Source of the DNA: Allacma fusca
Lineage: Eukaryota; Arthropoda; Collembola; Symphypleona; Sminthuridae
NCBI GenBank assembly: GCA_947179485.1
Contig: OX359245.1
Coordinates: 32,227,067 to 32,291,066 of the forward strand
Reading direction: 5' to 3'
Length of the DNA stretch: 64,000 bases
Under the pieces are notes generated by a model. It ran no database searches. It was not told the DNA's origin and saw only the letters and a list, made by a program, of their open reading frames with translations. Below are positions 28,236 to 64,000 of the stretch, in pieces. Position numbers and translations under genes: made by a program. How positions within the stretch are numbered: position 1 is the stretch's first letter; the number at the start of each line of letters is the position of its first letter.

Positions 28236-31050
28236 TTATGCCACATTATGTAAACGTATTTTAATTACATGACTCAATCGGACGCTATTAATGTTCAAAA
28301 AACGAGGCGTCCTGAAATCGAATGGGGATAAATTGATAATATGATGAACACATTTATCAATATTCCTCAGCGCCAAGTCCAAGCCAGGACCAAGTAAGCG
28401 TTCCCAATAGGCCGTGCTTTCTCTTTGTAAAGGCCTTCAAAAAAATCAATTCTTAAATTTTGGCAAAATCGCGTAGTATATTCGATGCAATAGCAATAAG
28501 ATCAATAATGGCATGTGTTGTTTGTAATTCCCGGAAATGCTTACCATCTGAACTTCATTGGGCGGGAGTATAGGTCCAGCATACCCACACCGTATCTCTG
28601 AAAAAGCCTGATATTCCCTTGGAAATTATTGAAACAATTGGCTTTTACGGATTCAAACATTAGCCAAACCACGTCCATAACCGGGTCAAAAATCATATTC
28701 GTTTGAAAACATGCTGTCGAACGGTTGCGGCCATCGTTCACAATGAAACCAAGGCAGAGGGGGTTAGTGGTTTTATTAACGGCTAAAATCTGAAATATAA
28801 TATTAGTTCCTTTTTATTTTATTTTGTTTTACAACCGAATGATACATATTTTGAAACCTTATTTTGTTTTCTTTTTTGCAAACACACAGTTCAAACCTGG
28901 ACTAAAGTTTGCGCTAGTTTGGGGTGGATCTGGCGCTAGAGGTCGCGACATCTGAATTTTTAAACACGAACAGTTCGTTTCTTGGTTTTTCTTATGGAAA
29001 TTAGCATACAAAATTTTATCGAAAACCTTTACTGTCCCAGAAAAAAAAATCAGATGGCGCGACCTCTAGCGCCAGAACCGCCAGATTTGTTCCGGCCCTT
29101 CCACCCCGAAAGGTTCCCTTATAAGATGAGATTAGATTTTTTTCCAGATAAATTTTCTACTTTTAATTTTCTATTTCAAAAGTTTCAGAGACGATTTTGC
29201 TTTTTATAAAATTTTTCAAGACAGTCCCACAACACTATAAGACTCAGAAATTTCAATAGCAACTTTAAGGAACTAAAGAACTGTACCTCTTCCTTACACT
29301 CATCCTGTATATAAGGAGCGGGCCTTGCGCCGTTCAAGCAATTCTGCAGGATCTCCTCGATCCAGCCATACTCAACATTGGAAATGAACGGAGCCCTCTG
29401 AGGGGTAGTCAAGTCATGAAGTTTTTTGAAATTTTTGATGACCATGTCCAGAAACTGAGGTCTTATAACATTTGGCGGACATAACCTGGAAAATATTGCT
29501 TTGGTGGTGTTGAGTAACTTGAACCCATTGATTGGCTCAGTTTCGTTTGTAGTTTTTTTATAAATTGCTTCAGTAATGGTTTGAATGATTAATTTCCGAT
29601 TCTGCATAGCTACAGTGTGGAGTGCACCAGTCACGTCCGCATCCGATATAGTATCATCTCCAACGGGAATGCCTCCGTTCATGGCCGCTGGCTGATTTTT
29701 CGTGTTTTGGTCTTCCGGCTTAAAATCTTCATTTACTTCACAACCCCGCTTCCGATTTTCGTTTTCTGCTACTTGGCACACAGTGGCGTAATTGGCAGGA
29801 GTTACGACCACCCCTGAGTCCCCACCACCTCCAGTGTCCTCACCGGTTGGGGGTGGCCCTTGGAAGTCAAAATAAGGGACAACGTTCCCACTGGAGCTTG
29901 TTAAATTAACGTCTACGCCTCTGCCTTGAACAGCGTTGGCTCTCTTTGAGCCAGTAAGAAGAGAATTTTTGTTGGAGTTACTGTCGCTGAAACTTCTCTT
30001 TTCTTGAGGTAGGGATTGTGGGTCAAGCTCTGACATGTCCTGCTTCGTAATATTTGTAGGTCTCGAATTTACTGGAAAAGAAGGCTGGACATCTTTGGGT
30101 CCAGGCTCCAGGGACTGTATTATCTTCGATTTTATTTTTTCTACACAAATATTCCCAAAAACAAGATAACATTTAAAAATTATTTTCGCAAGTTTTTACT
30201 GTATAGTAAAAGCTGTGCAGAATTTTAAAGGGATTTTACCTGGATTGCTTAAAACTGGGACGTTGAATTGCAAGCCGTCATTCTTTCCTTCAGATTTTAC
30301 GTAAAATTCGTCAAGTGCATTTTCATTGAGGATAACTGCTGGGGTTGGGGCTGGGGTTGGGGCTGGAGTTGGGGCTGGGGTTGTGCTGGTGGATGTAGTG
30401 GTTGAAGTCGTTGTTGTTTTCCCTGTGCACCAATTTTACTTTAAATTTTCATTTAATTTTTTTCCCCTGATTTTATGTTTTTCTTTCTGCCGTTGAAAAT
30501 TTTAATACGGATTTACAATGAGTTGAAAATATTTCCCCGTTTATTTGCACAGTCAATATTTTGTTCATTGTCTTAATCTTTGATAGTAAAAATATTGGTT
30601 ATTTACGTTTCCTATGTTTTTTGCCCTTCTTCCGGCGATTCTTCTTCTTGTGCTTTCGTTTTTGGGGTTTTTGTGTAGTGGTCTCCGGTGCTTTTGCTAG
30701 GAATTACATCAAAATATTTTTGTAATTTTCCTTTAATTTTGTGTACAAAACTTACAAATTTTGATAGGAAATCGTTTGTAAATTAACATTAATTTTTTTT
30801 TTGTTGAAACAAAATTAATGAAGATGATTTAAATAATTTTACTTTGTAGCTCAACGTCCTCCAGTGAGAAAGATTCAGAGTTTGGGCTCACGGGATCTTT
30901 TGGTTTACCGATATTCCGGTAGCGATTGTAGGCTCTGGACAGTTCCAATAAGGTTGGGTTGTTCGAGACCTGGAAAAAGTCATTGGACTCGGTTGTCTCT
31001 GTAAAGAGAACTAGGATCAGTGTAGGGACGAGGATCAGTCCAATCTTCAT
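28236..31050 (-). CDS. Large secreted protein with S/T/P-rich and basic regions, function unknown
   Basis: A six-exon gene predicted to encode 592 residues. The exons are 31050-30843, 30696-30607, 30422-30240, 30140-29287, 28789-28545 and 28434-28236, and phases agree at every junction (1,1,1,0,2). The protein starts with a clear signal peptide (MKIGLILVPTLILVLF). It then has a very basic block in exon 2 (KRKHKKKNRRKKGKKHRKR), a Thr-rich stretch and PAPT repeats in exon 3, and a long hydrophilic region. A C-terminal part of about 250 residues looks globular, with scattered cysteines. I do not recognise a family. If the exon 4 donor (GAG/GTACAG) is not used, exon 4 runs to a stop at 29185 and the last two exons would form a separate fragment. 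The secretion signal and tandem position next to another secreted peptide suggest an extracellular, matrix or secretory role. Confidence 0.6.
28930..29076. repeat. Inverted repeat in an intron
   Basis: CTGGCGCTAGAGGTCGCGAC near 28930 is mirrored near 29055 by GCGCGACCTCTAGCGCCAG, with arms of about 25 bases and a spacer near 95. It lies in the intron between exons 4 and 5 of the secreted protein gene. Its GC content is well above its surroundings. It may be a short foldback insertion. Confidence 0.7.
30343..30391 (-). repeat. 12-bp tandem repeat encoding PAPT
   Basis: GGGGCTGGGGTT-type units are repeated about four times within exon 3 and encode Pro-Ala-Pro-Thr repeats. Such repeats change copy number easily and look like linker or mucin-like sequence. 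Confidence 0.85.
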
Positions 31051-32842: not shown

Positions 32843-33430
32843 TACACATCGTTTTCCAAATACGGGCTCAAATGCAAAGCGTAAGGCCTCATTTGTAGAA
32901 TTACACGTGTCAGCGGAAATTGAGCTAATTGTAAATAAATGTATGTGCATTTTTAGAGAAAAATACCAAAAATCGTCACTTAGCAGCTATATTGGCCCCA
33001 TCCATCTGGAGTGACAACTGGAAGAGTGACGTAGCTGTGAAAATGTAATGTAGATTCTAAATATTTTAACGAGTTGTGTGTAATTATCACATTTTGTTTA
33101 CGAATTTCCCATTCTTATGGTATCTATCGGAATTTCGAGATATTTACCCGAATTTTAAATACAATTTCCAGAACGTTTTTTAGAATTTTGAAAACATTTT
33201 TAAGCATTTTGGATTGCTGGGAAATCTCCCACTAGCTAACACGGAAACGTGGCTTATTCATAATTTGATTCCCCCAGACCGTAACAACTATTTACATTCC
33301 TTTCTAAAATTTCGGTACATGATCTTAGCAAACTTTTAAGGTCCACATGGTATATACAAACATAATTAACCATGGTTGTAAAATTAGGAGGCAAGATTCA
33401 AAAACTCTGCCTTTTCACAGTCACATAGTT
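32843..33430. other. Spacer, ending in a hAT target duplication
   Basis: No gene is visible. The last eight bases, ACATAGTT (33423-33430), are the left target-site duplication of the 7-kb hAT element. Confidence 0.6.
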
Positions 33431-33746
33431 CACTGCTGCCCGCCGAGTTTTAATTCTATTCTATTCTATTCCGTTTACAACTAAGTCTTGGATATTCAAT
33501 TCCTATTATATTCCACTAATACTTTCGCGAGGCTATTCAAGTCTATTCACATTACAGCGAAATTATAAAATTCCTATTCTATTCCTACCACTGCTGCCCG
33601 CCGAGTTTTAATTCTATTCTATTCTATTCCGTTTACAACTAAGTCTTGGATATTCAATTCCTATTATATTCCACTAATACTTTCGCGAGGCTATTCAAGT
33701 CTATTCACATTACAGCGAAATTATAAAATTCCTATTCTATTCCTAC
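33431..33746. repeat. Tandem duplication of the transposon's left terminus, 2 x 158 bp
   Basis: The first 158 bases of the element, including the TIR, occur twice in a row (from 33431 and from 33589) with essentially no differences. The outer copy abuts the target duplication. The two TIRs could both be cut by the transposase. This looks like a very recent duplication, or an assembly artefact. Confidence 0.85.
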
Positions 33747-34179
33747 TCAAATTCTATTCAACAGGAATTAAAAACCGCGCGCTGCATAAAATAGACTTTC
33801 CTTCATAATCCCAAAACAAGGAATAATAACTTGCTATTGATTTATATGATAATAATATTAAATTCTCATTTAAACGACACAATTATCAATAATAGTGAAA
33901 ATTAATTACAAAATAATATTATTTATAGTAAGCATTTCTATACGAGTTACCTCCGGACAGACTAGTGAATTCAACAGGTTTCTAATTAATTTTATATGTT
34001 CAATATTGACGGTTATTAATATATTAGTAAAATAATTATAATAGTACCGACAATTTTTTGTTACATGGATTTCATTTTTTGATGTAGATTTTTCCAAAAC
34101 TCTAGTGTTTTGAAAAAGTTGCTAGTTGTTTGAAAAAATTATTATTTGAAAAATACAGATTATTTTGTAATTAATTAGA

Positions 34180-35812
34180 ATGTCGAACTTGAACTATTGG
34201 AAACGCAAAGAAAAGGCTATGAAATTTGGAAAGGCAGATCAGAGACCGCAAGATGATGATGCAATGAGACAGTTTCTACTGTACAGAAGACGGAAAAATT
34301 TTAATGTCATTCATCACAACAACCCCAATCGTGAACGAATAAGAAACTGGTTGCCATCAATTCCTGTTCATCTAGCACCTACAAGTTTTCATAAAGGAAT
34401 TAATATGTCAACCCACGAAAGATTCTTTTTTGTCGCAACATCTGAAGACTTCGATGCTATGCTTGATTTATTGTACGATGTTGATGTGTTTGCCCTTGAT
34501 CTCGAATTTAATGATGACCATTCGTATTTAGGTAAATTACATTTTAGCTGTCTTAAATTGTTGAAGTGCCGATTTAACCTAATTAAAATGCTTACCGTTA
34601 TGTGTACTACAAAACACTAGAGTTTTGTAGTAATATATAGTAACTTGCTCTAACATTGTCACTATTTTTTCCAGGAATGATTTGTCTTATTCAAATCAGT
34701 ACGTATCATTGGGATATTTTTATTGACCCCTTTCAACTATTTGAAGAAATTCAAGGGCAATTAAAATTTGTTCTGGAAAGTGAACACTGGACAAAAGTTA
34801 TGCATGGCTGTACTAACGATGTGAGGAATATGCAGCGAGATTTTGGAATTTACATGGTCGGTGTCATCGATACACAAATAATGTATCAAGAATACAAATC
34901 TATTGGCACCGGAACCGTACTCAAATTTGATAAACTTGCTGCAATTGTTTTTCAACCAACGATCTTTCATATTTGAGTACAATCAAAAAAGAGTGTCTAA
35001 CTCTGGCAGATTACAGACAACGACCGCTTCCATTGAAATTAACTATATACGCAAGAGCAGATGTCCATGTCCTTATTCGAATGTATTTTGAAATGAGAAT
35101 TAAAGTAAGTACAATAGTCACCTATTTACACTAGTTCCCTCATCAAAACTCTAGTGTTTTGATATGTAATGAAATAGCGACAATGATTATGACAATTAAG
35201 TTCATACGAAGACTTAAAATGTTGAATTCACTATAATTATTTATCTAGATGACTGATGTCGCATTTTCGATGTGTGTACGTAGGACGAACCAACTTCTGA
35301 TTAAACAAGGCTTGACTTATGAAACTCCAGCTGAAGTTGGAATGGTAACTGATCCACTGGTCACAAACAATAAAATTTACAGCTCACTGACTGACCGGCA
35401 AAGACAGACATTCCAGAGGATTTATCAATGGCGTCAAGACTTGGCCAAACGAATTGATGAAAAACCGGAGTACATTATAAAGTCCGCTGACATTATTAAC
35501 TGTATTGTACATCCCAGAAACCCTGAAGAAATTGCAGTTATAGTTGGCAAGTATTCCGAGTCATACCAGAATCAGTCTGCAACATTCCTCAAACTTGTAA
35601 ATAACTATGAGTACTACGACCAGCTTACCCAAAACATTTGTCACAACTGTTTAATTGCTGGACATTGCGCCTGGGGATGTCTAGAAGATTATAGCAAGGA
35701 AAATCAGCAACGATTTTATGCTGCAAATCCAGCCTCGAAAAATGTAGTAAATCGTCATCGACGGCAACATCGGGATGCAAATCGACGGGCACTTAAGAAC
35801 CAACAGCACTAA
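34180..35812 (+). CDS. Transposon-borne RRP6/EXOSC10-like 3'-5' exonuclease with HRDC and CCHC knuckle
   Basis: Three exons: 34180-34531, 34675-35104 and 35249-35812. Exon 1 ends and exon 2 begins with exonuclease motif I (FALDLEF, then a tyrosine-leucine-glycine/CLIQIST context as in EXOSC10). Exon 2 also holds motif II (HGCTNDVRNMQRDFG) and motif III (YARADVHVL) after LADYRQRPLP. All five DEDDy residues are present. Exon 3 encodes an HRDC-like segment (LTDRQRQTFQRIYQWRQDLA), then a CX2CX4HX4C zinc knuckle (CHNCLIAGHCAWGC) and a basic tail. One problem: exon 2 changes frame near a T-run at 34948-34952, so motif III lies one base out of frame with motif II. This is either a one-base deletion, an assembly error in a homopolymer, or an unusual splice. 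With frame kept the product would be about 448 residues. RRP6 enzymes trim RNA 3' ends in the nucleus; here a role on DNA or RNA of the transposon is only inference. Confidence 0.8.
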
Positions 35813-35814
35813 GA

Positions 35815-36650
35815 TTTGTTAGTGCAGCTGAAATTATGTAGTACTACAATACTCTAGTGTATTGTAGTACTTCGCTGATAATGATTTATTTTCTTTATTT
35901 TGTTAAAATGATTTAATTGACCTATATTCAAGTGAATGCAACTTTTACTTATCTACTAATTCACTTGTGTATCGATAAATCAAAGGTCACCGGCAGGGGT
36001 CGGATTTATGTGGGAAACGGGAAGAATCTTCACAGGGAAACAAATTTTGCAGCAGGGAAATGTTCGAACGGGATTGCAAACAGGGATTTTCAAATCTGTT
36101 GAGGTGTTTTACTGAAAATGATTTGTGTCGACAGGGATTTTTGAATTTGTTGGGGTGTATTACGAAAATTAATTTGTCAGCAGGGACATCATGGCCGGCA
36201 GGGAAAATCAAAAAGTTCTTCCAGAGAGATTTACAAAATCCGACCCCTGGTCACCGGTTAATTTAACCGCGATCTCATTTCATAATAAAAATGTGACTGT
36301 ATGAAATACTTTTTGGAAGTACAGCTGTAATTATGTAATACTACAATACTCTAGTAATTTTTGTATGATGATTTATGCAAAATGAAATAATATTTCGCAA
36401 GTTCAGATGTAATTATGCAGTACTACAAAACTCTAGTGTATTGTAGTACTGCCCTGATAATTATGTAATTATGTAAAATGAAGGAATATTTCGCAAGTTC
36501 AGTTATAATTATGTAGTACTACAAAACTCTAGTGTATTGTAGTACTGCCCTGATAATTATGTATGTAAAATTAAGGAATATTTCGCAAGTTCAGTTATAA
36601 TTATGTAGTACTACAAAACTCTAGTGTATTGTAGTACTACTCTTATAAAT
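35815..36650. repeat. Array of hairpin-containing tandem units between the two transposon genes
   Basis: Five copies of a unit built around TAATTATGTAGTACTACAA followed by the CTCTAGTG core and the mirrored TTGTAGTAC arm occur near 35838, 36333, 36417, 36510 and 36601. The last three form a regular array with a period of about 92 bases, each followed or preceded by TATTTCGCAAGTTCAG. The array is split by a nested MITE. It lies downstream of both convergent genes and may act in 3' end formation or as transposase binding sites. Confidence 0.8.
35994..36249. mobile_element. Nested hAT-type MITE, 256 bp
   Basis: The ends CAGGGGTCGGATTT and AAATCCGACCCCTG are perfect inverted repeats. They are flanked by perfect 8-bp duplications GTCACCGG (35986-35993 and 36250-36257). 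The interior contains several CAGGGA motifs. It has no coding capacity and inserted into the larger hAT element after that element had formed. Confidence 0.92.
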
Positions 36651-36960
36651 TTAACGTATATTTATGTGAAATGAAATTTCTGCATTATCAGTTTACAAAA
36701 AAATCGTTATGACTGTGAAATTGTTTGAAGAAAATATATTTAGACCATTAAATAGTGAAATGTATCCACATACGAAACCAGTATAAAAAGTTATCTTTAT
36801 AATATGATTTATTATTTGAATTTCAAAGAGCAATTTACTTCCAGGATTGATTTTTAAATTGACAGAACAGATGCAACATAGTTATGCAAGAATGCATTAA
36901 AGCTCTAGTGCTTTAATGTATTCTCATAGCTTGGTGGGAAGTTTTACTTACAATTTCACA

Positions 36961-39900
36961 CTACATATTTAATTTTATTTCTTCTTCAACATGCTGAGAA
37001 TGAAGAACAAGCTGTTCAAATACCGGAGCTTCAGTACATGCTCGCTTTGCTCTACCTATTGCAGTTAGCTCAGAAAATAATCTTTCCACACTACCCGAAC
37101 TGGCTGGAATTGCCAAATATAATTTTGCTGCTATTGCTAATTTTGGATACACAAATTCATTTCTTTTCCAATATTCTAAAATATTACTATCCGACGGTAT
37201 TACTGGTTCTCGCAAGAATAAATCAAATTTTGACTCTCTGATGCTGTCACCAGTTATAAGTGCATCATTTTGTGCCTGCTGGTTGACTTCATCAATAAAA
37301 CATTTACGTTGCACAGATTTGTTGGTAGGGACTGGATTAGTTGAATCGTAAGTTTCCTCCTTGAAAAACTCTTTACACATCTTTTTGGTATCGGTGTAAC
37401 TAGGAAGGCGCAGACCTGCAGTGTCTACAAGAAAAATATAAAGAAATGCAATTCGGGAACAAAAATCTAGTTTTTTGTTTAAGACCACATGTGACATAAA
37501 GAAAAATTTATGTGGTTACCCTTTAGTTTAAAAACATTTAGTTTCATCCTTGCATCCACAGCGGTTGCCAAAATGAATGAGCGATGATTAACGATGGGTT
37601 CAAACCTTTTGATAATTTGAGCAACAAGGTTGTTGCGCATTTCCAGAAAATATTTGACTTCCAATAGCTTTACTTCTGTTTGAATAAGAACACAACATAA
37701 CATTTATTGTTGTGCGTGCTTATAAATTCTTATTTTAATTGTTCTACCTTTTAACTTGCACACCAAACTGTTAATAAGAATGGAAGACGTTACTCCATCT
37801 GCTTGAAGAACGTCAGTTAAATCTGCGAAAGGGCGAAGTACCGAGGAAAATTCTTTCATTTTCTTTTTGTCACTATTCTGCAACTTGCGTGGCAATCCTT
37901 CTTTTTGCTTCAGTTTGAATGTTTGATGAGCTAGCTTCAGCAACATTTCCACAGCAAGATACACCTTTTCCTTTTAAAGATATTATGATTGTTTTTATAA
38001 ATGAATGCAAAAATTAAACAAAACTCTAGTGTTTTGTTTGAAAGAATTAATTCTTACCTCAGTTAGCCGATTAATTGCATCCACCCAGTAGTTCCAACGT
38101 GTTTGAGCACGCTTCAGCAAACCTTTGCCAGCAAGCTTTCGTAATTTTGCTAAAAATACTGTGTTGTTTGAAAAAAAATTGATGATTTTATTCATGTACG
38201 ACAAAAACGCTGCCGCCTCTTCCGTTTCTAATGCACTGTTTATTCCGAGTTGAAGTTGATGAGAAGTACACCGCAGATGTTGCAAATCGTTTCCCAGCAA
38301 GGGTTGAAAAGCGGAAAAAGAATCCGTGTCACTATTTGCAGTGAACTCGTTCGAGTCTTCGTCATTTTCATTTTCGCTTTCACAATAAATAATTATCTCG
38401 TCATCAGGAACTTCATCGTCAACCTGAATTTCATCATCACTTTCGCTGTCGAAATGCTCCTCAATTGCTGTTTTTGAGATAGGAGCTTTAAATGCCTTCA
38501 CCATATTTGCACCTGAATCTGTCATCACCATTGCCACCTGTGATAAAAATCTAATTATAATCATGATTTAAAACTCTAGTGATTTAAATTTGATTTATAA
38601 AGTTACGAAACCTTATCCCGGATATTCAATTCATCTATTAGATCGTCAAAATGCTTCCTTATGGTATCACCCGTTTGACTTTCGTTTATTTCGCGTATTC
38701 CCAGCGTCAGATTACGAACACTCCACGAGTTGTCTATACAATGGAATTTAAACGCTAAAATGCCATCTTTTCTCCTACTTTTCCAGGAATCTAATGAGAT
38801 TATTCCTTTCCCCATTGAGTTAAGAACCTGTTTTAGACTCGGAATCACCTAAAATCATAACATTTAAAGATGCTAAATATAATTTACAGAATTATTAATT
38901 TACTTTAAGGCTTCTCACATTTTTTTCGTGCTCCTGTTTGAATCTTCGTTGAACAGTTGAACGACTTGGAATAGAAAGTTTAGGGTCAATCGTTGACATC
39001 AAGTTACTGAAACCTTTTCCATTTCCTAGACTCATGGGGAGTTTGTCTTTGGCAATGCAGTAAAGCAGAGCCTTATTAAACTTTGTTTGCTGATGATCAC
39101 TTGGATGGTATTTAGATTTTTGTTTCGACCTAAACCATGAGTGCATGATATCTCTTGATTTTTCTTCACTTGCAGCTTCTTTCTTCTCAAGTTCTGCGCC
39201 TTTATCTGGATGATATTTCTAAACAGATAACGGCGCTGTGGCTATGATTATTTTGCGAAACCGCTCCAAAATACTAGAATTTTGAAGTGGAATTATTTGT
39301 GACATACCTTTAAGTGCCGAATCAAGTTGGATACACCACCAGTAGACGGAGATTGATATGAATATACTTTTAAACATATAAGACATTTTGCTTGTATTGA
39401 TGTGGAATTACTGGTGATTGGAACTCCGTTTCGGATCTCATACTTGTGACCAAGATATTCAAATACCTCTCGTAAAGATTTATTCGGAATTTGGTAATTT
39501 TCTTCCCGGATATTTACATCCTTCAGCACAGTCAACTCCTCTTCGAGATGGTGAACTATTTTATTACAGTCACCTGACATCTTTGAAACCTTAGTCGGTA
39601 CAACTGGTAACTCCGACTGATGTAAAGCTTCCGGAAGCATTTTTTTGCGACTAAGCTCGCGTAACCAATTATTATTAGTATTACTAGTTGGCAAATTTGT
39701 AACAGGTACATTTGAAGTGGATCGGTGTTCATCTTCACATTCTTCGGTTGGATCAGGCGTAGTATCGACGATTAATCTCGAGCTGGATTTCGGGAAATTG
39801 TTTGATTTTTCTTTTGGCTTAATTACCAACACGGTGCTTTCATTTACTTGAGATCTCTTTTTCGTTGTGATATTTAAAGATTTACTCGTACTTGCACTGG

Positions 39901-39985
39901 GATTTGTATTACAGTTGAAGGTTTCATTTGACTTCACATTGCTGTAAGTTGTACGAACATGTGGACTCTTCCGAGATTTTTTCAT
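36961..39985 (-). CDS. hAT transposase with BED zinc finger
   Basis: Seven exons predict 850 residues with all phases consistent: 39985-39308, 39218-38904, 38848-38612, 38537-38058, 37970-37748, 37675-37520 and 37424-36961. The BED finger spans the exon 1/2 junction (CLIC in exon 1, then HLKKYH). The RNase H-like catalytic domain begins with DSWKSRRKDGILAFKFHCID in exon 3 and continues with MTDSGANMVKAF in exon 4, an acidic insertion, then LRCTSHQLQLG and the RW motif (AQTRWNYWVDAI). Exon 6 has ILATAVDARMKLNVF. Exon 7 carries the hATC dimerisation region (YLAIPASSGSVERLFSELTA). No stop or frameshift is seen, so the protein is probably functional. It cuts and joins the element's own termini. 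Four of its six introns hold a CTAG-centred palindrome. Confidence 0.9.
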
Positions 39986-39990
39986 TTTTG

Positions 39991-40014
39991 TAACAAAAAT
40001 CTAGTTTTTTGTTA
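39991..40014. promoter_or_regulatory. CTAG-centred palindrome in the transposase leader
   Basis: TAACAAAAATCTAG followed by its mirror lies directly upstream of the transposase ATG. A sister palindrome sits at 34094-34114, about 65 bases upstream of the exonuclease ATG. Others occur in introns at 34606-34631, 35142-35163, 37458-37480, 38017-38039, 38564-38588 and 39266-39285, and near the gene 3' ends at 36890-36924. The core is kept while the arms differ but stay self-complementary. The function is unknown. Confidence 0.55.
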
Positions 40015-40492
40015 TAAATTTTAGATAATGAAATGCTGACAATAGTTTAAAATAACCAGTTCTTAATTGAAATAATCAATATTATTGGTTTACGCGTAAT
40101 AAATAACTTTCCAGCAGAATGGAATATTCTCGAAACTTGAAACGATGGGAGATAAATTGAGACTTCAACGGTTCTTTACTGAAGTATCTGCGAGTGGATA
40201 TTCTTAGGCATGCAACATACTATACTTACTAAAACAAGTATCATTTCGTAGATGTAGATGGCGTTCGTGTGTTTATGTCATTCTCGGCGGCTCATAACTG
40301 AATAGGAATTTCGCTGTTTTTACAATTCAATTCTGATGCTGTTCAACTGTTACATATTCTATTCTATTCTACTCCGGGAGTTTCAAAAATGGAACTATTC
40401 AATTCTATTCAATTCATTTCTGTATAAATTTTGACAATTCTATTCAAATTCCTATTTTCCTATTCAAGTCGGAATAGACTAGGGCAGCAGTG

Positions 40493-40957
40493 ACATAGTT
40501 TGCTTAAAATATTGATGACTTTTCCATGTCCAGCTCTTCAATTTTGCTTTTCAATTTAGGATCTCAACTGGAATTTTCACAACCTTGCTCCTTATTTAAA
40601 ACCATCATCCCAGAAAAGCATGAAAATAGATTTAAAGAAGTATATACTTCCATTAGAATGAACATACGTCGTAGCTACTTATATGTATATACAATTACAT
40701 ACAAGCATCTATTTTCATCAGCAGAATATGCGGAGCATGATATTATTGAAGAACAAAAATGCGCAAGTTACGCCAGAAATTAATTTAGAATAATAGAACA
40801 TAAATGGAAACATTGTGTTTATGAACACTTAATTTATTTCAAGAGGTTGTAATAACTGAATACGTGTGTACATAATTGAAATCTATGGCCACTTTCATAT
40901 TATGAAAACAGGAACCACTGGTTCATGATTGGTTGAATGGTCCAACCAAACTCATTG
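40493..40957. other. Right flank of the 7-kb hAT element
   Basis: It begins with the right target duplication ACATAGTT. An 85-codon plus-strand frame at 40526-40783 has no domain and no splice support, and I do not call it a gene. Confidence 0.5.
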
Positions 40958-45330: not shown

Positions 45331-47163
45331 AGTGGCTTCCTTAAGTCAACCACATATTTTAATGGACTGACTCATGCTGCATTATGAATCGTTGAGGATT
45401 TCTACGCAATTTCGCATTGTACGGAGAAGTTGAGTGATAATTTTTTTCTGCGTGCACAACACATTGGAAATGCTTTTTTTTTATCTTGTAGCTATTATGT
45501 GTTTTGCCAGTGTCTTATAAGGGGTTTGCTTGTAATTCTGTTGTATGTGCATAAATAGTTACACAGAAGTACATACTTATACGTTAGAACAGCTCGGAAA
45601 TACTTTGACAACAAACTTTCAGAACAGCGTCACAAGTTTAAATGTTGATGGGGACAGTCCACAAGTCATTTATTCTGTAAATTCCCAGTACAAACTGTAC
45701 ATTTCTACGTTATCACTTTCTGAACTTGTATCCTTAAACTATTCAATCGGTAAAACCTGGTTGTAGTTTTAAATAACTTAAAATTTCCAATATTTTATAT
45801 AATCGTCCCTTCAACTAGTGTTTACAGTTGCGGCTGCTGTTTTAAATTGGAAATGAATAAATTGGAATAATATTTGTGTACAGCAATTACGGCAATCAAA
45901 GTTGCATTGGTAAAATGATTTAATTATCCGATGGGATTTGTAATTGTAAGGAGCATTTGAATTATTGCTATTATTGTAAATACTTGTTATATCTTTCGAT
46001 CTCAAATTTGATAGGATTTTATTCCGCGGTTCTATTTTGCACAAGAATGATGAGGTAAGTCGTGATAGTGGAAATAATCTGGAATTACTTTGTAATAAAA
46101 TTGTATAGATTAAAAAATGTATTTTTTATGCTAGGACTATTGGCATTTACGGTATAAATCACTACATATGTGTCTTACAGTAGTAAATAATTTTCTGTCC
46201 ACATGAAAGTAGTCACTGGCGGAAATTGTCAGCGGATTGGATGCGATCTGATTGGCTAGCGATTCAACCTGTATAGGCAAAACCAGGAATAGCAAATATT
46301 TGTAGTGTTTTAAAAAATCAAATGACCCAGACCAATTATTGTATTTTATTATTTTTCATACTTTTTTAATGGAATTGTTGTCAAGGCCGGACTGCTGTTT
46401 GTGGCTCATTTCCGCTAACTCTCCTCCGAAACTTCCAGCTGCATCTGCCAATTTTGAAGCCTCAGTGCATAACATGTATATTTTTATTATGCAAAAGCCC
46501 CAGTAAGACGAAGTTCCCAAAATCATTGCGTACTCTCGACCCAGAACCCAGCAGTAAATGAAAAAGAAGTACATGAGCAACGTCGTGACGTTCAGGAGAA
46601 ATTCAATTAAGAGCGCAAATCCATAGAAATTATTAAATTTGATCACCAAATGCCTCACCATGTAAAACCTATCGATGCAATTCTGTAATTGATTTCCCCT
46701 CTCGCCCGGTCTAATGTCAACTGCGCAAATTAAATTAGCTTTTGTTTTTGTACATAATAAATTCTGAGCACTTAAGTCCTCTTTTACAATTAAAATCATT
46801 TTTGTGTACATTTTGATTAAAAATAATATCCAAGCAAAGAAAAGAACTATGCAAGAACATAAGAAACAAAAATAAAGCATTAAAAAGGCCAAAACTACCA
46901 CAAGCGCTATCGGATTGGGGGTTTTTTAACATTGGACGAAGACACTGCAACTAAATGGAAAATTGCTAAAGCCGTTTTAGTAATTGACCTTTGGGTATTC
47001 CCAGCCCCTGATTCGTCAAATACAGTTTTTTGACTCGGGGGAAATCTGAGAGCGCACAAAAATCTTCTATCATTCGGCAGTTGGCTTTCCAAAATTCGGT
47101 CGTTCTCTTGTTGAAAAATAACCCATGGATTTTAAACCAGGTAGTGGTAGAAATAGAGATCAA
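45331..47163. repeat. Segmental duplication, left copy
   Basis: From TCAGTGGCTTCCTTAAGTCA onward this block matches 62574-64000 in the same orientation. It is highly similar in the receptor coding exon (63274-63867 equivalent) and moderately so in flanking DNA. The block contains the gustatory receptor copy. The right copy is shorter in its non-coding part through deletions between about 45570 and 45950. Confidence 0.85.
46019..47163 (-). pseudogene. Gustatory receptor, frameshifted copy A
   Basis: The 3' part is clean. A main exon ends at 46362, then come 46268-46179 (encoding ANQIASNPLTISASDYFHVD) and 46078-46019, which encodes STITTYLIILVQN and a stop. TYLIILVQ is the hallmark TM7 motif of insect gustatory receptors. 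The main exon encodes TM5/TM6-like segments ending in SKLADAAGSFGGELAEM. Compared with copy B it has at least two one-base changes of length: one at an A-run near 47030 after DFPRVKK and one T insertion near 46845. These break the frame in the N-terminal half. Either it is a pseudogene, or the homopolymer runs are mis-assembled. An ATG at 47163 is the probable original start. Confidence 0.75.
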
Positions 47164-62573: not shown

Positions 62574-64000
62574 TCAGTGGCTTCCTTAAGTCAATCACAT
62601 ATTTTAATGGCCTGACTCATGCTGCATTATGCATCGTTGAGGATTTCTACGCAATTTTGCATTGTACGGAGAAGTTGAATGATAATTTTTTTCGGCGTGC
62701 TCAACACACTGGAAAATTATTTTGTATCTTGTGCTATATGTGTTTTAATAGTCTCCAATACGGAGTTTACTTCTAAATCCGTTGTATGTACATAAATAAT
62801 TACACCGAAGCATATACACGTTAGGAGGGCTGGGAACTACTTTGACAACAAACTTTCAGAACAGCGTCACCAATTCAAAAATTAATTATTACAATTATTA
62901 TTATTGTAAATACTTGTTTTATCTTTCGATCTCTAATTTGATAGGATTTTTTCCCAAGGTTCTATTTTGCACAAGAATGATGAGGTAAGTCGTGATAGTG
63001 GAAATAATCTGGAATTAATTTGTTTTAAATTTACATAGATTTTTTATACTAGGACTATTAGCCTTTAAGGTATATTTCATTACACGTGTCTTACAGCAGT
63101 AAATAATTTTCTGTTCACATGAAAGTATAGTCACTGGCGGAAATTGTCAACGGATTGGATGCGATCTGATTGGCTAGCGATTCAACCTGTATAGGCACAA
63201 CTACGTATAACAAATATTTGTAGTGTTTTAAGAAATCCAATGACCCAGACCAATTATTGTATTTTATTATTTTTCATACTTTTCTATTGGAATTGTTTTC
63301 AAGGCCGGATTGCTGTTTGTGGCTCATTTCCGCTAACTCTCCTCCGAAACTTCCAGCTGCATCTGCCAATTTTGAAGCCTCAGTGCATAACATGTATATT
63401 TTTATTATGCACAAGCCCCAGTAAGACGAAGTTCCCAAAATCATTGCGTACTCTCGACCCAGAACCCAGCAGTAAATGAAAAAGAAGTACATGAGCAACG
63501 TCGTGACGTTCAGGAGAAATTCAATTAAGAGCGCAAATCCATAGAAATTATTAAATTTGATCACCAAATGCCTCACCATGTAAAACCTATCGATGCAATT
63601 CTGTAATTGATTTCCCCTCTCGCTCGGTCTAATGTCAACTGCACAAATTAAATTAGCTTTTGTTTTTGTACATAATAAATTCTGAGCATTTAAGTCCTCT
63701 CGCACAATTAAAATCATTTTTGTGTATATTTTGATTAAAAATAATATCCAGGAAAAGAAAGAACTATGCAGGAACATTAGAAACAAAATTAAAGCATTAA
63801 CACGGCCGAAACCGTCAGAAGCATTTTCGGATTGTGGTTTTTTTAATATCCGGCGAACAGAGGGCACCGCTACTAAATGGAAAATTGCTGAAGCCGTTAA
63901 AATAATTGCCCACCGGGCATTCCCAGCCCCTGATTCGTCAAATACAGTTTTTTTGACCCGAGGGAAATCTGAGAGCTCACAAAAATTCTCTATCGTTCGG
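62574..64000. repeat. Segmental duplication, right copy (runs off the window)
   Basis: It is the partner of 45331-47163 and continues beyond the right edge. The coding exon is almost identical between copies, much more so than the flanking DNA, pointing to recent duplication or gene conversion. Confidence 0.85.
62919..64000 (-). pseudogene. Gustatory receptor copy B, partial and frameshifted near the 3' end
   Basis: The main exon is open from the window edge to a donor at 63280 and encodes DFPRVKKTVFDESGAG followed by TM segments, ending SKLADAAGSFGGELAEM. The next exon (63186-63095) carries two extra bases relative to copy A just after the codons for SASDY, which shifts the frame before TM7. 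The last exon (63008-62919) still encodes TTYLIILVQN but would be read out of frame. Thus copy B is intact where copy A is broken, and the reverse. The N-terminus lies outside the window. Assembly errors could explain the lesions, but two copies with separate defects favour real decay. Confidence 0.75.

Follow-up and report, generated by a model that had tools for sequence, protein, structure and literature searches.

The closest described systems are the transposons of the hAT superfamily (e.g. Hermes, hobo, Ac and Buster), which, to our knowledge, encode a transposase only and have no internal series of palindromes. We analysed a 64,000-bp stretch of DNA from the springtail Allacma fusca (assembly GCA_947179485.1, contig OX359245.1, positions 32,227,067 to 32,291,066 of the forward strand; this whole stretch is called the window) and found in it a hAT transposon that resembles these elements in its 8-bp target-site duplication (TSD), short terminal inverted repeats (TIRs), BED finger and hATC region, and differs from them by an exonuclease gene and an internal palindrome series. 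That the element is a hAT transposon carrying an exonuclease, and that a palindrome series goes with it, we regard as practically certain. We further propose that an exonuclease-plus-palindrome module is common to different transposon types and, in our preferred reading, acts on unspliced or antisense RNA made from the element itself, by a mechanism that we infer. A search of open papers (preprints and Repbase lay outside it) returned, as far as the accessible text goes, neither a palindrome series of this kind nor an RRP6-like exonuclease in any hAT or CACTA element, which does not establish priority.

DEDD-type exonucleases have been described in other mobile elements. KolobokD is a eukaryotic DNA transposon that encodes a transposase and a 3'-5' exonuclease of the DEDDh type (TREX/ERI1-like) (PMC9587614); the window element, of the hAT rather than the Kolobok superfamily and with a DEDDy rather than a DEDDh exonuclease, is not a KolobokD element by the accessible parts of that account, and those parts describe no palindrome series. 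In bdelloid LTR (long terminal repeat)/Athena retroelements, a DEDDy protein (open reading frame 3, ORF3) is common to unrelated element classes and apparently forms a pool apart from host genes (PMC5408684). Again as far as the accessible text goes, no palindrome series is described for these ORF3-bearing elements; they are retroelements, whereas the springtail elements are DNA transposons, but in both a DEDDy exonuclease is found across element classes.

Two cellular proteins are also relevant. The exonuclease of the element is similar to RRP6/EXOSC10 in its fold, in a putative HRDC-like region and (by eye) in an upstream RPQ stretch, and differs in that no PMC2NT domain was found, in a C-terminal zinc knuckle (CCCH fingers in the family f29 described below) and in its separate group in the tree. 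Egalitarian, a host transport adaptor, offers a precedent only: in the Egalitarian-BicD system a protein with an RNase D-like domain binds RNA stem-loops, one of them from the I-factor transposon (according to PDB titles), but its fold match is weaker than that of RRP6.

The window element and its copies

The element (33431-40492 of the window) has 11-bp TIRs, CACTGCTGCCC at 33431 and the complement GGGCAGCAGTG ending at 40492, which begin with CA as hAT termini do, and a perfect 8-bp TSD (ACATAGTT) flanks it on either side. The first-pass annotation had called these boundaries exact, and they are; we can add that in this copy the left 158 bp, including the TIR, is doubled in tandem (33431-33746, 100% identity), and that only the outer unit adjoins the TSD. 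The left end is single in the other three copies. The main features, other than the palindromes, are:

33423-33430, left TSD (ACATAGTT)
33431-33588, plus strand, left end including TIR CACTGCTGCCC, tandem copy 1
33589-33746, plus strand, left end, identical tandem copy 2
34180-34531, plus strand, exonuclease exon 1, DEDDy motif I
34675-35104, plus strand, exonuclease exon 2, motifs II and III; frameshift in the window copy, open in L009 and L011
35249-35812, plus strand, exonuclease exon 3, HRDC-like region and CCHC zinc knuckle
35994-36249, nested 256-bp hAT-type miniature inverted-repeat transposable element (MITE) between the two genes, TIR CAGGGGTCGGATTT, TSD GTCACCGG
36961-39985, minus strand, hAT transposase gene, seven exons with GT-AG introns, 850 amino acids, BED and hATC
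40482-40492, minus strand, right TIR (GGGCAGCAGTG)
40493-40500, right TSD (ACATAGTT)

A search of the genome (392.7 Mb in 91 contigs) with exonuclease exon 3 gave 19 matches, counted as 17 loci: four of the window family and 13 diverged. All four window-family loci (the window copy, L009, L010 and L011) are full copies with a mutual identity of 99.6-99.8% over aligned bases, each has its own perfect TSD (ACATAGTT, GCGTACAA, ATACGTAG and CCCAGATA), and all four contain both the exonuclease and the transposase gene. A chance insertion is thus ruled out for the window element, because three more full copies have other perfect TSDs. The earlier proposal that the exonuclease is the second gene of a hAT element agrees with this result, as the pair was found together with the TIR in every full copy and recurs, again in convergent orientation, in diverged relatives. 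Two other accounts of the locus were rejected: that the exonuclease is a chance nested host fragment (ruled out by the four full copies and the diverged relatives), and that the TSDs do not belong to one element (ruled out by the four full copies, each with its own perfect TSD).

The left end of the window element has at least 41 matches in the genome, five at 100% identity inside the four full elements and 36 at 89-92%. Nine of these 36 loci were retrieved whole, and all nine are derivatives of 0.92-1.9 kb (MITEs) that share only their ends with the element; seven of them have perfect TSDs. As for the MITE nested at 35994-36249, the four-copy alignment has no indel in this region, so it seems to have been inserted before the four copies spread. 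The first-pass annotation had overlooked this MITE and also 13 palindromes plus a half-site (34095-40012).

The transposase gene model (39985-36961, minus strand) has no internal stops. Of the full transposase claimed earlier, the BED finger (PF02892, 29.8 bits, E-value of 6e-7) and the hATC region (PF05699, 49.2 bits, E-value of 5e-13) are both above the Pfam cut-offs, and the putative RNase H-like DDE motifs have the expected look by eye. Sequence matches in the PDB number four (two named Hermes transposase and two named transposase). One copy, L009, has a 189-nucleotide deletion within the transposase.

The exonuclease and its relatives

The exonuclease gene (plus strand, 34180-35812, three exons) is convergent to the transposase gene, and by sequence and fold its predicted product is RRP6/EXOSC10-like. 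The exonuclease domain is clear (PF01612, 98.9 bits, E-value of 4e-28), and the best solved relatives by sequence are RRP6/EXOSC10 (E-value of 1e-27). The DEDDy motifs I-III and the CCHC knuckle reported earlier both stood, the HRDC-like region falls just below the Pfam cut-off (21.8 versus 23.8 bits), and the reading frame turned out to be broken in exon 2 of the window copy, whose own exonuclease is probably dead. It is open in L009 and L011, and broken elsewhere (in exon 1) in L010. A Pfam search found no N-terminal PMC2NT domain (PF08066) in the window exonuclease; this domain is present in three out of seven EXOSC10-like proteins (P0005, P0010 and P0011), some of the other four being partial.

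We aligned seven exonucleases (those of the window family, represented by L011, and of f28, f29, f30, f32 and f35, and the protein P0001); those of f26, f27, f49, L031, L033, L036, L037, L039 and L048 were partial, redundant or not yet fetched and were left out. The aligned proteins are 24-60% identical to the first, and the DEDDy residues D107, E109, D166, Y243 and D247, together with the knuckle residues C392, C395, G399 and H400, are invariant in all seven. P0001 and P0007 are proteins recorded from A. fusca and are read from f40 and f29, respectively: all three segments of P0001 are found letter for letter in f40, and long stretches of P0007, which has two additional CCCH fingers, were compared by eye. 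In the tree all seven element exonucleases cluster together (84/77, 88% of bootstraps), apart from a set of seven EXOSC10-like proteins (95/89), and branches are long. The comparison with EXOSC10 proposed earlier thus separates the element exonucleases from the sampled EXOSC10 group, in a tree that left out the host's own EXOSC10.

In an AlphaFold2 model of P0001, most of the exonuclease domain (residues ~80-280, weak near 200-230) is predicted with confidence and other parts are predicted poorly, the mean predicted local distance difference test (pLDDT) score being 62; the model has helices at 308-346, in the putative HRDC region, with pLDDT mostly 55-66. The first 14 PDB matches to this model in a Foldseek search are RRP6/EXOSC10 chains or complexes (from an E-value of 7e-17), and lower-ranked matches include Egalitarian complexes with RNA stem-loops, one from the I-factor by its PDB title. 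Substitution counts for two pairs are taken as evidence of selection: over two exons, L029 and L031 show 14 non-synonymous (764 sites) and 10 synonymous (205 sites) differences, and the proportions of non-synonymous (pN) and synonymous (pS) differences between the window family and f40 are 0.27 and 0.85 (saturated).

Protein searches for element-type exonucleases returned A. fusca proteins only (P0001, P0007 and P0008), by a method that needs shared 5-mers, so that absence elsewhere is unproven. Other matches were EXOSC10-like proteins, two RNase D-like proteins (P0006 and P0013) and a short metagenome protein, P0004. This last protein (258 amino acids, named as a ribonuclease D) clusters with the exonucleases of the springtail elements (91/89, on a long branch) and may belong to an element in some other organism.

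Of the 13 diverged loci, eight were extended (five were chosen after palindromes had been seen in them), as were two loci found later. Searches with tblastn found an exonuclease convergent to a hAT transposase in f40, f26, f29, f30, f32, L048 (an internally deleted f30 relative) and f49; for f26 the match is limited to the C-terminal part of the exonuclease, and f27, which has stops and no transposase match, is a relic. In f28 (L028 and L044) and f35 (L035 and L047) the exonuclease is convergent to a partner that is not hAT by these searches. The two partner proteins are 37% identical, and their matches to tnp2 (E-value of 0.006) and DUF4218 (E-value of 0.003) are both below the cut-off (0.011 each with exons joined); a database search with the partner gave three relatives only, none with domains. 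We tentatively call this partner transposase CACTA-like (tnp2). The exonuclease/transposase pair thus recurs, as judged from sequence, in six further hAT lineages and in two putative tnp2/CACTA-like families.

Ends could be assigned to some of these relatives. From two copies that are 99.7% identical, f35 is 8768 bp long, with the TIR CCCACACCATGG, which differs from the CACTA terminus, and TA at both ends; f40 has the TIR CAGTGCTGCCC and the TSD GTCTCCGT. End and TSD searches gave no convincing ends for f26, f27, f28, f29 and f32, and for f30 gave a 12/12 match (353 and 7837) that is not hAT-like in look. Both f28 and f35 have similar small plus-strand open reading frames beyond the tnp2-like gene (by eye; the f28 version has no Pfam match), perhaps a third gene. 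In f26 (L034, C10:49953069-49954550) the sequence resembles degenerate AT-rich repeats by eye where the catalytic exons are expected, and the C-terminal exon and the palindromes persist.

Palindrome series across families

The window element contains 14 matches to CAAAACTCTAGTGTTTTG within four mismatches (one of them a half-site), and the 57 kb of flanking window sequence contains one, at four mismatches. All 13 palindrome centres are non-coding by our gene model: six are intronic, five lie between the genes and one lies upstream of each gene. Every intron longer than 72 bp has a palindrome (six out of six) and neither of the two shorter introns does. In L011 a 13-nucleotide internal deletion (window 34614-34626) has removed the core of the intron-1 palindrome. 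A search of known RNA families gave two matches within the element, both below the gathering score. The palindromes are:

34095-34113, upstream of the exonuclease gene
34604-34635, exonuclease intron 1 (34532-34674), core deleted in L011
35144-35162, exonuclease intron 2 (35105-35248)
35840-35871, directly 3' of the exonuclease stop codon
36373-36655, tandem array with three palindromes, centres at ~36435, 36531 and 36623
36889-36924, intergenic
37460-37478, transposase intron 6 (37425-37519)
38019-38037, transposase intron 4 (37971-38057)
38569-38587, transposase intron 3 (38538-38611)
39267-39285, transposase intron 1 (39219-39307)
39994-40012, upstream of and adjoining the transposase start codon

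Other families have palindromes of their own: TCAAAACACTAGAGTTTTGA in f26, CAAAGCTCTAGTGCTTTG in f40, GACAARCTAGYTTGTC in f29, AGACAANCCGGNTTGTCT in f30, ANACAAGCATGCTTGTNT in f32, ACAACAAACTAGTTTGTTGT in f28 and ACAACACACATGTGTGTTGT in f35. These palindromes are 16-36 bp long and are sited in introns, leaders and the intergenic gap; four of them share ACAAN-CNNG-NTTGT. Over seven families the median spacing is 585 bp, with 48 out of 61 gaps of 440-840 bp, six shorter and seven longer; the longest (2.4-2.8 kb) are found between the two genes in f28, f29 and f35. In the three elements whose ends were available for this measure, 509-570 bp separate the left end from the first site (in the window, the inner tandem copy is taken as the left end).

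Two patterns, CAAAACTCTAGTGTTTTG and AGACAANCCGGNTTGTCT, were searched for in the whole genome. AGACAANCCGGNTTGTCT is found at 10 places (six in f30, three in L048 and one in f49); it was through this search that L048 and f49 came to notice, and both proved to be exonuclease-transposase elements. CAAAACTCTAGTGTTTTG is found at 19 places, of which 15 belong to the four window-family copies and four to f26. All 29 exact sites are thus inside exonuclease-bearing elements, and reversed-pattern controls gave none. That the palindromes are a general feature of host DNA is supported neither by the 57 kb window flank nor by these searches.

We also compared stretches by one uniform measure, the size of the largest recurrent palindrome family (complexity filter removed; with it f35 counted 2 and other loci were unchanged). 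The counts are 9 for the window family, 4 for f26, 9 for f28, 8 for f29, 8 for f30, 10 for f32, 11 for f35, 3 for f40, 11 for f49, 5 for L048 and 1 for f27. A recurrent family of at least three sites is present in 10 out of 11 extended exonuclease loci (eight out of nine without L048 and f49, which were found through their palindromes and give no independent support here) and in none of 24 control stretches. Among these controls, six hAT stretches with no exonuclease match have largest families of 1, 1, 1, 1, 2 and 1 (each stretch is 5-6 kb, so an exonuclease farther out is possible), nine window-flank chunks have 0-2, and nine MITE loci have 1-2, the series being absent from all three groups (among the MITEs, L014 has one unrelated 16-bp palindrome). 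Of the 13 diverged exonuclease loci, examined over 3.2-3.6 kb each, nine have a palindrome family of at least two sites, one (L039) has a single site and three have none.

To assess the symmetry of the sites, we compared how each left arm pairs with the right arm of the same site and with right arms of other sites (68 sites; four weak sites and all f40 sites were dropped). Own arms pair more often at certain positions: position 3 in f30 (8/8 versus 25% across sites), position 3 in f29 (11/11 versus 36%) and position 8 in f32 (10/10 versus 29%). In the window family, f28 and f35, arms pair past the shared core, and none of 20000 permutations reached the observed total (414 out of 20000 did for f32 and 434 out of 20000 for f26). 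Because arms co-vary within sites relative to the cross-site control, base pairing within sites is maintained to a degree that dimer binding would not call for, although a mutational process of correction could contribute to the symmetry. In the window family and f26, position 3 from the centre never pairs (21 out of 21 sites) and reads TCTAGT or ACTAGA, in either orientation.

Possible readers and roles of the palindromes

The same pair of features in very different relatives suggests a shared system by which an element recognises or protects its own nucleic acid. Going by the elements compared, the palindrome series tracks the exonuclease more closely than the transposase: it is found with two transposase types and is absent from the six hAT stretches without a detected exonuclease, although it is also missing from three exonuclease loci. 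We therefore take the exonuclease (or a host partner) to be the likeliest reader of the sites. As the exonuclease is the sole gene found in all palindrome-bearing elements, we infer that exonuclease and palindromes form one module. The first-pass annotation had suggested that the exonuclease processes ends or degrades small-RNA precursors, roles that it may have. We put the probability that the exonuclease reads the palindromes at about 0.42. In the mechanism that we favour, nascent RNA would form a hairpin at each palindrome, and the exonuclease of each family would recognise the hairpins of that family through the zinc knuckle or CCCH fingers. Because sense and antisense RNA form the same fold at a palindrome, sites in introns and between genes (~1 per 0.6 kb) would mark unspliced and antisense transcripts and would be mostly lost from spliced mRNA; the nuclease would then clear the unspliced and antisense RNA that feeds small-RNA silencing, and mRNA would be spared. 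Host small-RNA precursors often remain unspliced, according to work in Drosophila, and Egalitarian, a relative by fold, has been solved bound to RNA stem-loops including that of the I-factor (PDB titles). Taken separately, clearance of site-bearing RNA is on the unlikely side. A broader version, which we hold tentatively and at somewhat less than even odds, is a self-recognition module: a captured RRP6-like exonuclease and dispersed family-specific palindromic tags, inherited or exchanged across unrelated transposase superfamilies, that would shield the element against small-RNA silencing or internal deletion by distinguishing unspliced or antisense RNA of the element (or the DNA of the element) from all else.

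Several observations weigh against reading of RNA hairpins by the exonuclease. L027 and L033/L038 (with stops in the exon) and L037 (with an open exon) have no palindrome family in 3.2-3.5 kb, and L039 (a cut-off f35 copy) has one site; L037 is the most direct case, an open exonuclease exon (C10:33865276-33865743) 46% identical to that of f35 with no palindrome family in 3.5 kb, and because of it we lowered slightly our estimates for both recognition and RNA clearance. The stronger proposition that every exonuclease family has its own palindrome is contradicted by these same loci (L027, L033/L038 and L037). The exonuclease of f40 is open, but this family has only 3-4 sites, none in exonuclease introns. 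The whole arms of f29 and f30 show no excess of pairing (17642 and 18302 of 20000 permutations), because their palindromes end sharply. The exonucleases of f30 and L048, a damaged copy, give ratios of non-synonymous to synonymous substitution (dN/dS) of 0.67 and 1.16, as expected of dead copies. The window core (TCTAGT or ACTAGA) has no constant orientation with respect to transcription, as would suit DNA no less than RNA, and the palindromes next to the exonuclease stop and the transposase ATG (3' and 5' of them, respectively) may be part of untranslated regions of mRNAs.

The sites may instead work at the DNA level, which we consider unlikely, as Chi-like stop or marker sites for the exonuclease that form hairpins in single-stranded DNA at excision or gap repair and limit resection; a long element would then be recopied whole with fewer internal-deletion derivatives, and the non-coding position of the sites would reflect mere coding constraint. 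The orientation-independent core and the even tiling, with its first site at a similar distance from the left end in three bounded elements, are accounted for as well by such stops, the nine short derivatives lack the palindromes, and one core was lost by deletion in one out of four copies, as happens with hairpin-forming DNA. RRP6/EXOSC10 enzymes act on RNA, however, and the CCCH fingers of the f29 exonuclease are of a usually RNA-binding type. Distinctly unlikely is that the palindromes are binding sites for the transposase (as BED finger dimers) or for a host DNA-binding factor, the exonuclease being unrelated: family-specific dyads of 16-18 bp, whose ACAA/TTGT half-sites are separated by one helical turn, do resemble dimer sites, and L037 fits such a role, but the palindromes occur with unrelated transposases (hAT and tnp2-like), are missing from nine out of nine MITEs (the L014 palindrome being unrelated) and from six other hAT stretches, and co-vary between arms at freely variable positions, as no dimer site requires. 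A narrower proposal, that they are end sites for the transposase, is disfavoured by the nine MITEs without them.

It is improbable that the palindromes, as RNA hairpins, serve ordinary control of splicing or translation. The site adjoining the transposase ATG would fit this, as would the presence of one site in every intron above 72 bp (six in all) and of none in the two shorter introns, but several sites are intergenic, the identical sequence is used in both genes and both orientations, and L051 and L053, hAT genes split into exons with no exonuclease detected, have no palindromes. Still less can be said for the absence of any function, with symmetry arising by template-switch correction (a known mutational process of quasi-palindromes), spread by gene conversion and the exonuclease as a passenger; this we consider very improbable, as placement is similar in families whose exonucleases are 24-29% identical to that of the window, both searched patterns are confined to these elements, and position 3 never pairs in any of the 21 sites of two families.

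Accessory nucleases of DNA transposons are rarely understood, and here one has a countable, sequence-defined partner, a link that makes function directly testable (reading in RNA or in DNA). The palindrome pattern is also a handle for spotting such elements in unannotated genomes, as two (L048 and f49) were found blind. The module may reveal a transposon-encoded answer to small-RNA silencing. Males of A. fusca are reported, in the accessible part of one account, to eliminate the paternal genome (PMC9630974), a setting where germline silencing is of interest.

Elsewhere in the window, the same dispersed repeat is found twice, 17 kb apart (46131-46256 and 63049-63174), and an inverted repeat around GGCGCTAGAGGTCGCG / CGCGACCTCTAGCGCC at 28914-29085 is possibly a small MITE.

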